Virus record (IMG/VR): IMGVR_UViG_3300046411_000115
Span: 1-37,967 of that record
Origin: a virus
Length of the DNA: 37,967 nucleotides
Direction: 5' to 3' (one strand)
Positions within the stretch are counted from its first letter, which is position 1, and every line of letters starts with the position of its first letter. This document shows positions 7,328 to 13,783 of this stretch, piece after piece. Position numbers and translations under genes: made by a program. The notes beneath the pieces are model-generated. The model did not search any database. It saw nothing but the letters and a program-made list of their open reading frames with translations, and was not told the DNA's origin.

Positions 7328-7960
7328 ATGAAACAGAAACCAACTTACTATGCTATTATATCTGCAGAGGTTAGATATGATAAAAATTTATCAGCTAATG
7401 CGAAACTGCTGTATGGCGAGATAACTTGCCTTACTAATGAGAATGGCTTTTGCTTTGCAACTAATAAGTATTTTGCTGATCTATATGACAAGAGTAAAGT
7501 AACTATTTCTAAGTGGATAAGCGAATTAGTGTCAAGTGGTTATCTATCAACCAGTTACACATATAAGGAGGGTAGTAAAGAAATTGATAAGAGGTATATA
7601 AGTATTCTTAAAGGGGGTATTAAAGAAAACTTAAAGGGGGGTATTAAAGAAAACTTTAAGGATAATAATACAAGTATTAATAATACAAGTATAATAAAAG
7701 AAAAAATAATAAAAAGAAAAAATTTTATTGTACCTAAAGTTATTGAGATAAAAGATTATTGTCGTTTAAGGGATAATGGAATTAATGCAGAACAGTTCTA
7801 TGATTTTTACCAGAGCAAAGGTTGGATGGTAGGTAAGACAAAGATGAAAGATTGGAAGGCTTGTATGAGGACTTGGGAGAAAAGACAAAATAAAACTAAT
7901 AATAACACTACATCACACAGACATAAAAAAGGAGGAGATTATGGTGATGGTAAATTTTAA
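7328..7960 (+). CDS. Replication initiation/helicase-recruiting protein
   Basis: 210 residues. The N-terminal domain (about 1-90) is a winged helix: TYYAIISAEVRYDKNLSANA, then ATNKYFADLYDKSKVTISKW with the recognition helix and WISELVSSGYL wing, as in phage RepO/DnaD-N-like replication proteins. A linker with two exact-phase copies of LKGGIKEN (residues 94-109) and Asn/Thr repeats joins a C-terminal domain (about 128-190) with FYDFYQSKGWMVGKTKMKDWKACMRTWEK, a pattern common at the ends of phage replisome organisers that bind the helicase loader. The next gene is a DnaC-like loader three bases away. Origin binding is inferred. Confidence 0.72.
   Translation: MKQKPTYYAIISAEVRYDKNLSANAKLLYGEITCLTNENGFCFATNKYFADLYDKSKVTISKWISELVSSGYLSTSYTYKEGSKEIDKRYISILKGGIKENLKGGIKENFKDNNTSINNTSIIKEKIIKRKNFIVPKVIEIKDYCRLRDNGINAEQFYDFYQSKGWMVGKTKMKDWKACMRTWEKRQNKTNNNTTSHRHKKGGDYGDGKF
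7607..7654 (+). repeat. Tandem 24-nt repeat with G tracts
   Basis: Two head-to-tail copies (7607-7630, 7631-7654) encode LKGGIKEN twice in the replication protein. Each copy contains a poly-G run (5 G at 7613-7617, 6 G at 7636-7641) followed by TATTAAAG. The run lengths differ while the frame is kept by codon choice (CTTAAAGGG vs TTAAAGGGG). Confidence 0.8.
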
Positions 7961-8725: not shown

Positions 8726-8747
8726 AAACTTATTGTCCTAATTAAAA

Positions 8748-8834
8748 TAAAACAATAGATATGAGTAATCCAAAAAGAACAAGAAAAGAAATTAGAGAAG
8801 CGATAAAAAAAATAAAAATAAAAAGAGAATTAAA
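8748..8834 (+). repeat. 87-bp direct repeat, copy 1
   Basis: Matches 9465-9551 with one mismatch (8827 G versus A). Includes the pre-start sequence TAAAACAATAGAT and the first 24 codons of the ORF at 8761. Copy 2 is the start of the gene at 9478. Confidence 0.9.
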
Positions 8835-9184: not shown

Positions 9185-9475
9185 ATGGAATTAACATTAA
9201 GACAACAAACAAAAAAATGGGATGTATGCTTTTGGTTAGGATATACAAAAGACATTAACTTTACTATTGATTGGGATAGTGGATTTACTTTTAAAGTATC
9301 ATTCATATTCTTTCAATTCTTTGTAGATTATGGAGATGTAGTAGAAGATAAATTACCAAAAACTTCAATAGATGAAGAATTACTTTACTTTGCAAATATG
9401 TTATATGCTACAAGTAAAGACGACACTAAAAGAGTAAACTCCATTGTAGATGGTATACATAAATTAAAACAATAG
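9185..9475 (+). CDS. Hypothetical protein, aromatic-rich
   Basis: 96 residues. The first half is unusually rich in Trp and Phe (KKWDVCFWLGYTKDINFTIDW..., FKVSFIFFQFFVDYG around 36-50), giving an all-beta look; the second half is helical (EELLYFANMLYATS, then IVDGIHKLKQ). The Phe-rich stretch is too short and too interrupted by charged neighbours to call a membrane helix with certainty. No known family. The next ORF begins two bases after its stop. Confidence 0.6.
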   Translation: MELTLRQQTKKWDVCFWLGYTKDINFTIDWDSGFTFKVSFIFFQFFVDYGDVVEDKLPKTSIDEELLYFANMLYATSKDDTKRVNSIVDGIHKLKQ

Positions 9476-9551
9476 ATATGAGTAATCCAAAAAGAACAAG
9501 AAAAGAAATTAGAGAAGCGATAAAAAAAATAAAAATAAAAAGAAAATTAAA
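9465..9551 (+). repeat. 87-bp direct repeat, copy 2
   Basis: Second copy of 8748-8834 with one mismatch. Covers the last codons of the 9185 gene, its stop, and the first 24 codons of the 9478 gene. Confidence 0.9.
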
Positions 9552-10783: not shown

Positions 10784-10993
10784 ATGCCTAAAATAAGAAA
10801 AATAAGAACATCAGATAGAAAGGATAACAGAGGTGGTGGTTATTCTAAAAGAAAGTTTACCTTTCAAGAAGCAGAGGGGATAAGGGGGGAGTACCATAGG
10901 GGGGGTATATCAGTTTCAGCACTTGCTCGTAAATACGAAGTATCACAACCTCTCATGTACCAACTAATCAAAGGTACAACCTACAATGAATAA
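10784..10993 (+). CDS. Small HTH protein with poly-G codons
   Basis: 69 residues. A basic, Gly-rich N-terminus (TSDRKDNRGGGYSKRK) precedes a homeodomain-like HTH: FTFQEAEGIRGEYHRGG (about 26-42), ISVSALARKYEVSQPLMYQL (about 43-62) and IKGTTY, like the resolvase/RNA polymerase sigma-4-type HTH in small phage regulators. Gly and Arg codons here form runs of 4, 6 and 7 G (10876-10905), exceptional in this AT-rich genome and prone to slippage. Overlaps the VRR-NUC gene by 8 nt. Confidence 0.68.
   Translation: MPKIRKIRTSDRKDNRGGGYSKRKFTFQEAEGIRGEYHRGGISVSALARKYEVSQPLMYQLIKGTTYNE
10876..10905 (+). other. Poly-G tracts within HTH gene
   Basis: Runs of G4 (10876-10879), G6 (10884-10889) and G7 (10899-10905), the last followed by TAT as in the other tracts. 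Three runs in 30 nt could pair with a fourth in an intermolecular or imperfect quadruplex and are potential slippage sites in the reading frame. Confidence 0.7.
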
Positions 10994-11333
10994 AGAAGCA
11001 ACAGTACAGTCTGCATTTTGTACATATATACAACTTCAATACCCTACTCTTAGATACTGTGCCAGTTTAGGTGGTATAAGAACATCCATGAAACAGGCTA
11101 TACTCGCTAAAAAGACTGGCTATGTCAAGGGTTTCCCTGATATGCAGATACTAAAAACAAACAAACAATATGCAGGACTCTTTATAGAAGTCAAAGCAGA
11201 TAAGAAATGCTACCCATCTAAACATCAGAAGGAATGGATAGAAGATCTAAACAACGAAGGGTACTATGCTGTTGTTTGCAAAGGTCTTGATGACTGCATT
11301 GAAACTTTAGAATGGTACATGAAACTGCTGTGA
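10986..11333 (+). CDS. VRR-NUC domain nuclease
   Basis: 115 residues, the size of a stand-alone phage VRR-NUC protein. PD-(D/E)xK site: E4 in the first helix (KEATVQSAF), GFPDMQIL (about 48-55, the catalytic D) and GLFIEVKADK (about 64-73, the ExK). A KHQKEWIEDLNNEGYYAVVC stretch completes the fold. These enzymes cut branched or flapped DNA, so a role in resolving replication or packaging intermediates is likely. Ends in MKLL with stop TGA inside the first unit of the 11-nt repeat array; the CTG-CTG leucines are unusual here, where TTA dominates. Confidence 0.85.
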   Translation: MNKEATVQSAFCTYIQLQYPTLRYCASLGGIRTSMKQAILAKKTGYVKGFPDMQILKTNKQYAGLFIEVKADKKCYPSKHQKEWIEDLNNEGYYAVVCKGLDDCIETLEWYMKLL

Positions 11334-11352
11334 AACTGCTGTGAAACTGCTA
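11320..11352 (+). repeat. Three 11-nt tandem repeats TGAAACTGCTR
   Basis: Units at 11320-11330, 11331-11341 and 11342-11352, identical except for the final base. The array overlaps the VRR-NUC stop codon and continues into non-coding sequence. Same core as the array at 13725-13783. Confidence 0.9.
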
Positions 11353-13209: not shown

Positions 13210-13296
13210 ATGAGTGGCAAATTACCAGTAACTAATTACTCAGATACTACCTTAACATTCTTATGTATACTAGCTATTCTCTTTGGGGGGTGCTAG
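13210..13296 (+). CDS. 28-residue peptide ending at a G tract
   Basis: ATG 13210 two bases after the previous stop. Hydrophilic start (MSGKLPVTNYSDT) then hydrophobic TLTFLCILAILFGGC. Its last two Gly codons are the first G6 run of the quadruplex cluster and the stop TAG precedes the next run. A change of one or two G in the run would extend the frame. Weak evidence that it is a real gene; it could be a leader peptide. Confidence 0.35.
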   Translation: MSGKLPVTNYSDTTLTFLCILAILFGGC

Positions 13297-13331
13297 GGGG
13301 GTATAGGGGGTACAGGGGGGGTGCCAGGGGG
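13285..13331 (+). other. G-quadruplex cluster, five poly-G runs
   Basis: Runs of 6, 6, 5, 7 and 5 G at 13285-13290, 13296-13301, 13306-13310, 13315-13321 and 13327-13331 with loops of 4-5 nt (TGCTA, TATA, TACA, TGCCA). This satisfies an intramolecular quadruplex with a spare run and is extraordinary in an AT-rich genome. Lies between a short ORF and the SH3-like gene, on the coding strand, so it would also form in the mRNA leader of the gene at 13369. Confidence 0.85.
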
Positions 13332-13368: not shown

Positions 13369-13647
13369 ATGAATACAATAACAACAAATCAAGCTAAAGA
13401 GCTCATATACAATAATAAATCTCAAATATTTAATGTAGAGTTTATAAAAAAAGATGGTACACATAGACTAATGAACGCAAGACTAGAAGTTAAGAAAGGT
13501 GTTAAGGGTGTAGGCTTGAGGTTTAATCCATCTGAACATAATCTTATAACTGTATTTGATATGAAGAAAAAAGCTCATAGAATGATTAATTGCAACAACT
13601 TAGTGTCTTTATCAGCTAATAAGCAAAAGTATCTTATAAGCGATTAA
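13369..13647 (+). CDS. SH3 beta-barrel fold protein
   Basis: 92 residues. The central pattern LMNARLEVKKGVKGVGLRF (about 34-52), HNLITVFDMKKKAHRMINC (about 57-75) and NLVSL corresponds to the SH3-barrel-fold family common in Bacteroidota phages and conjugative elements. Function not established; a nucleic-acid or protein-binding role is usual for such barrels. The ATG follows taactaaaaacaataataaa. Its 5' leader contains the G-quadruplex cluster, and a terminator follows its stop. Confidence 0.7.
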   Translation: MNTITTNQAKELIYNNKSQIFNVEFIKKDGTHRLMNARLEVKKGVKGVGLRFNPSEHNLITVFDMKKKAHRMINCNNLVSLSANKQKYLISD

Positions 13648-13668: not shown

Positions 13669-13700
13669 AAAGAGTATATTAATTTATACTCTTTTTTTTT
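13669..13700 (+). terminator. Rho-independent-type terminator
   Basis: Ten perfect base pairs (AAAGAGTATA 13669-13678 with TATACTCTTT 13685-13694), 6-nt loop and a run of T to 13700. Ends the SH3-like operon. Confidence 0.8.
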
Positions 13701-13724: not shown

Positions 13725-13783
13725 TAACTGCTACGAAACTGTTACGAAACTGCCGAAACTGTTGCGAAACTGTTGGAACTGCC
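13725..13783 (+). repeat. Degenerate 11-nt repeat array CGAAACTGTTR
   Basis: Units: TAACTGCTA (13725), CGAAACTGTTA (13734-13744), CGAAACTGC (13745-13753), CGAAACTGTTG (13754-13764 and 13765-13775) and GAACTGCC (13776-13783). Non-coding. Iteron-like spacing of 9-11 nt, one helical turn. The 304-nt gap 13648-13951 otherwise holds the terminator and the promoter box at 13915. Confidence 0.88.

Follow-up and report, generated by a model that had tools for sequence, protein, structure and literature searches.

A sense-strand array of G-runs, predicted to fold as a G-quadruplex, is conserved at differing gene boundaries in related AT-rich phages

The pilE quadruplex of Neisseria gonorrhoeae acts only with transcription (PMC3547852); it is a short, conserved and strand-specific cluster of G-runs adjoining a gene at a fixed chromosomal locus, where it starts gene conversion. 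In mitochondria, hybrid quadruplexes terminate transcription at CSB 2 by stopping the mitochondrial RNA polymerase; this long non-template G-tract of naturally variable length lies in a transcribed region and couples transcription to replication priming (PMC5027508). Quadruplexes of mRNA leaders, i.e. located on the sense strand ahead of a start codon, alter (raise) translation in E. coli, as studied with engineered reporters (PMC11087576). A survey of double-stranded DNA viruses placed Bacteroidetes phages among the poorest in quadruplexes, with a mean of 0.41 per kb; the part of it used here gives G4 counts in phages, i.e. statistics only, and describes no conserved relocating element (PMC8036883). 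Searches of the open-access literature brought up no conserved quadruplex in a phage comparable to the one presented below. To our knowledge, few conserved quadruplexes of bacteria and phages have an evolutionary history that can be traced.

The array analysed in this study resembles pilE in being a short, conserved, strand-specific cluster beside a gene, CSB 2 in being a long non-template G-tract of varying length in a transcribed region, and the reporter leaders in that a start codon is preceded by a quadruplex, here a predicted one, on the sense strand. Unlike pilE, it belongs to phage genomes, has runs of 4-8 G and a clade-dependent position, and shows no sign of recombination; unlike CSB 2, it usually comprises at least four runs at a gene boundary within an operon, with an O/P-type replication module elsewhere; unlike the reporters, it is natural, lies between cistrons and can be coding.

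The DNA studied (hereafter the window) is the whole 37,967-nt stretch of the virus record IMGVR_UViG_3300046411_000115. It closes as a circle through a 127-nt end repeat, giving a unit of 37,840 nt with about 31% GC, and its main genes are carried by the + strand (Table 1). The nearest terminase is that of Croceibacter phage P2559Y (44%), a phage without such a G-run array, and the small HTH protein has no relative among 84,980 bacterial and archaeal genomes nor in INPHARED. The host of these AT-rich phages is probably flavobacterial.

Table 1. Coordinates of the features of the window discussed in the text
Feature	Position	Strand	Remarks
24-bp direct repeats CTTAAAGGGGGGTATTAAAGAAAA, within the replication initiator gene	7607..7661	+	candidate origin iterons
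Small HTH gene	10784..10993	+	weak phrog HTH match; sister-clade orthologue has a G array at its 3' end
Secondary cluster of three G-runs (4, 6, 7), within the HTH gene, coding EGIRGEYHRGGI	10876..10905	+	
VRR-NUC nuclease (Holliday-junction-resolvase-like) gene	10986..11333	+	PF08774, E 9e-9; phrog_5702
Three GAAACTG direct repeats, end of the VRR-NUC gene	11321..11349	+	
Tiny ORF, 28 aa, MSGKLPVTNYSDTTLTFLCILAILFGGC then stop, hydrophobic stretch, C-terminal FGGC	13210..13296	+	TAG stop within the array
G-run array, G6 TGCTA G6 TATA G5 TACA G7 TGCCA G5	13285..13331	+	predicted five-tetrad quadruplex, sense/RNA strand
WYL_2 gene (Sm-like SH3 beta-barrel), next gene after the array	13369..13647	+	Pfam PF10902, E 2.3e-9; phrog_2267
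Terminator-like hairpin GAGTATA/TATACTC, then T-run, after WYL_2	13670..13700	+	read from sequence
Four GAAACTG direct repeats, after the WYL_2 gene	13735..13771	+	

A previous sequence-only reading had described five runs of 5-7 G separated by 4-5 nt, and this is exactly what the window holds (runs of 6, 6, 5, 7 and 5 G; loops of 5, 4, 4 and 5 nt). The array fits the canonical motif of an intramolecular G-quadruplex, which asks for at least four runs of at least 3 G on a single strand, separated by loops of 1-7 nt. The view that such a cluster is improbable by chance was borne out: among 1000 second-order Markov simulations of the window, none produced a cluster of at least four runs of at least 4 G, and 2 produced a three-run cluster. 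With the quadruplex term of ViennaRNA, the site gains about 29-31 kcal/mol (a 67-nt RNA of the array is predicted at -50.3 kcal/mol with the quadruplex vs -21.7 without), and the gain does not exceed 2.4 kcal/mol in any other 80-nt window of the genome; the array is thus the sole stable predicted G-quadruplex of this genome and by far the strongest. The window gave no match to Rfam at gathering score, a scan for the exact array sequence gave none either, and a short-motif search of bacterial genomes returned 17 scattered matches, none of them beside genes of this phage. An assembly artefact was ruled out because the same arrays are present in many independent metagenome assemblies. Chance, coding need, assembly artefact and simple slippage all fit the array poorly.

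As had been read from the letters, the array lies ahead of an SH3-like gene, identified here as WYL_2, at a distance of about 37 nt from its start codon, and at the end of a tiny ORF. The first G-run overlaps the GGC codons of this ORF, and the G of its TAG stop is the first G of run 2. Read-through of the tiny ORF, or decoding of TAG as Q, was considered and rejected: the Gly-rich frame that is open after TAG in the window is not conserved among relatives. The hairpin that follows WYL_2 shows compensating variants in relatives and falls under the G-C threshold of the scan used; between the GAAACTG repeats and the next gene lies an AT-rich stretch with a TATATTTG box. Given this hairpin with its T-run, the repeats and the AT-rich stretch, the array looks to be directly ahead of the last gene of an operon whose limits are read from the sequence.

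Relatives were gathered using the WYL_2 protein as query, a search blind to the array, which yielded 19 loci; all the relatives studied here are uncultured phages. All 18 close WYL_2 relatives carry 4-6 uninterrupted runs of at least 4 G just ahead of WYL_2, and the loss of the runs at this position, which the sequence-only reading had named as the observation that would speak against it, is not seen among them; one distant locus (50% identity) is without array. Considering the window and 17 relatives, 22% of cells at WYL_2 fourfold sites are off consensus, while not a single G-run is interrupted and the loops are variable. The first loop is TGCTA in 17 of the 18 sequences of the window's clade. 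The reading frame of the array is not kept within this clade, as run lengths vary, and in one locus (L016) the array is present though the small hydrophobic ORF upstream is a different one. Comparison of these orthologous sites shows that the G-runs are kept beyond neutral expectation.

A pattern scan revealed similar arrays in other AT-rich contigs, which turned out to be relatives. An HTH-anchored scan, also blind to the array, was then considered, from which the best 80 of 165 loci were used. When these best 80 loci, the window and ten VRR-NUC-anchored loci are tallied, the array is at the HTH 3' end in 51 loci, just ahead of WYL_2 in 21 (window included) and after VRR-NUC in 3, a reduced form of it occupying this last place in one more; 10 loci are without array and 5 are cut by a contig end. 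None of the best 80 HTH loci has both main positions occupied. In the sister clade, the WYL_2-front site is empty and a similar array is located at the 3' end of the small HTH gene, about 2.4 kb upstream; it is represented by 39 distinct arrays, mostly coding (counts were made on distinct arrays, since some loci may be one phage species sampled twice). In a more distant third clade, the array is found just after the VRR-NUC gene. On a tree of HTH plus VRR-NUC, every position is restricted to one part. This pattern is consistent with few relocations or replacements, and both a single moving element and independent origin with loss would fit. The array is on the sense strand in every case. Since related phages have the same kind of element beside different genes, the proposal that it regulates translation of the gene at 13369 finds no support as a general rule. 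One derived subclade (L210, L212, L231 and L233) has lost the array and several distant relatives are also without it; it is therefore not indispensable, which counts against the explanation favoured below.

The array had been read as mostly non-coding; this stands for the window and fails for the sister clade, in which translation of most of it gives the HTH protein a Gly/Arg-rich tail. There, 26 of the 39 distinct arrays lie wholly within the HTH reading frame, and 1-2 runs extend beyond the HTH stop in the other 13. The HTH frame crosses the array without a stop in 26 of 39 cases vs 8 and 4 for the other two frames, so that translation through it is tolerated or favoured in this clade. The glycines of these tails are mostly written GGG (165/273, i.e. 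60% of Gly codons), a codon rare in the window's genes (27/646, i.e. 4%), so it is the nucleotide runs, not the glycines, that are favoured. The property common to all positions is a sense-strand array of G-runs.

Because it is kept through changes of position and of coding or non-coding status, the array is very probably a real functional element and not an accident. The earlier suggestion of a functional structure is hence well supported, with runs uninterrupted in 18 relatives and persisting elsewhere in sister clades. We infer that the predicted fold would form in the cell and that the array affects transcription, the transcript or gene expression in these phages. Our preferred reading, held tentatively and at a little less than an even chance, is that of a selected cis-acting element whose function resides in the G-runs, likeliest as an intramolecular G-quadruplex on non-template DNA and/or nascent RNA, acting co-transcriptionally at a cistron junction. 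The array lies where two small genes meet, close to what reads as the 3' end of an operon, and either precedes the last gene or directly follows it. On passage of RNA polymerase, the G-rich strand or the transcript would fold, or a persistent R-loop or hybrid quadruplex would form; the fold might slow the polymerase and block ribosomes or exonucleases, and the output of the cistron after the array would thereby be set relative to the cistrons before it. Two further observations count against this co-transcriptional quadruplex. Four or more runs are found throughout the window's clade (4-6), but 7 of the 39 sister-clade arrays have three runs of at least 4 G, for which a normal quadruplex is predicted to be weak or restricted to two tetrads; such arrays would be tolerable for a hybrid DNA:RNA quadruplex or for a set of binding sites. 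Moreover, ribosomes translating the sister-clade array would melt an RNA quadruplex.

It is possible, if not yet probable, that these arrays form a new class of phage cis-element. Each genome would have a single G-quadruplex array, under selection for its structure whatever the gene context, which has moved between coding and non-coding places within one region and which affects transcription, the formation of R-loops or the fate of the transcript in these AT-rich and probably flavobacterial phages. Since the G-runs persist where their position, the adjoining genes and the coding status differ, selection acting on the runs can be told apart from selection for a protein or for the gene next to them, and arrays that are present, moved, three-run or lost offer natural comparisons for testing the role of a quadruplex in a phage operon.

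The main rival, unlikely in our judgement, is an array of binding sites, in which a protein (the phage HTH protein, WYL_2 or a host factor) would read AGGGGG(T) in duplex or single strand, site number setting affinity with no need of a quadruplex. Of 209 loops, 204 end in A, the base ahead of the next G-run, and 139 begin with T, the first base after a run; this loop-end A is tighter than a pure quadruplex needs and is suggestive of sequence recognition, being the best argument for it. The 9-12 nt spacing of runs in the window, the tolerance of three-run arrays, the adjoining HTH or WYL_2 gene and the presence of AAGGGGGTATT in the initiator-gene repeats point the same way. However, runs of 4-8 G (mostly 5-6) and loops of 2-9 nt overall (3-5 nt in the window's clade), without fixed phase, are unusual for a sequence-specific duplex site; interrupted or degenerate runs are absent from the window's clade; and the shared motif is a G-run plus A, with nothing beyond.

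Rather less likely still is a DNA-level R-loop or quadruplex starting recombination or replication, as for pilE G4 and CSB 2, with participation of the neighbouring VRR-NUC nuclease. A constant G-rich non-template strand whatever the coding status, the differing positions among clades and the contact of the array with the VRR-NUC gene in the sister and third clades agree with such a role, but VRR-NUC lies 2 kb away in the window's clade, no pilE-type silent donor copies, variable cassette or long repeats were found near the array, and the GC skew of the window shows no switch. Replication itself looks O/P-like, with genes for an O-like initiator and a DnaC-like loader in the genome; the initiator gene with its own direct repeats (7328-7960) lies about 5.6 kb from the array, which makes the suggestion that the array marks the origin unlikely. 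The array was accordingly rejected as the phage origin, the candidate iterons being in the initiator gene and not at the array.

A G-rich microsatellite growing by slippage at Gly-Gly codons, with little or no function, is improbable. Copy number and run length do vary, some clades are without array, run 1 and the GGC codons of the tiny ORF overlap, and a near-perfect TATAGGGGG tandem array exists in an unrelated Bacteroidetes MAG (L269). Against this, single loops can be matched in place from locus to locus (as for the first loop) and neighbouring units differ, so the array is old and not freshly copied; its units, differing in loop and run length with their order kept, are not near-identical (TRF matches of 71-81% only), and the runs stay uninterrupted despite the neutral divergence given above. 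The orthologous tiny ORF of the sister clade also encodes the same kind of peptide without any G array, its ending being written GGAGGT or GGCGGC.

We regard as very improbable a coding feature, i.e. a Gly/Arg-rich C-terminal HTH tail in the sister clade or a read-through or frameshift product of the tiny ORF in the window: the open HTH frame and the composition of the tails would suit it, but the window's clade has no common frame, the GGG bias concerns nucleotides, and fusion to WYL_2 is impossible because every frame is stopped ahead of 13369. Tandem Shine-Dalgarno-like decoys recruiting or stalling ribosomes are the least credible, for although AGGGGGU resembles AGGAGGU and can pair with the anti-SD via one G-U, and the last run is 1-2 nt ahead of the VRR-NUC start in 10 of 39 sister-clade arrays, none of the arrays in the window's clade contains AGGAGG and the run-to-start distance ranges over 1-35 nt in the sister clade, against the longer spacing of the window.

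Several minor observations were made on the same genomes. Tiny hydrophobic peptides, mostly FGGC-ended, recur across the clade in different gene orders. The secondary cluster of the HTH gene, only a weak predicted quadruplex, is confined to the window's clade, with different residues there in the sister clade. In most of the clade, the VRR-NUC gene is followed by 3-6 variably spaced direct repeats of GAAACTG(CTG); the window's clade has such repeats after the WYL_2 gene as well, just ahead of a promoter-like stretch. A tight coupling of the G array to these repeats was rejected: they are neighbours, yet L210 and L231 have the repeats and no array. In two distant loci (L254, L255), G-runs upstream and C-runs downstream of the GAAACTG repeats could pair as a long hairpin, and more G-rich stretches lie nearby. 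The initiator-gene repeats read AAAGGGGG(G)TATTAAAGAAAACTT, G-runs included, and are kept in many, not all, relatives. Finally, a 92-nt direct repeat, 98% identical, is present at 8743-8834 and 9460-9551, 717 nt apart.
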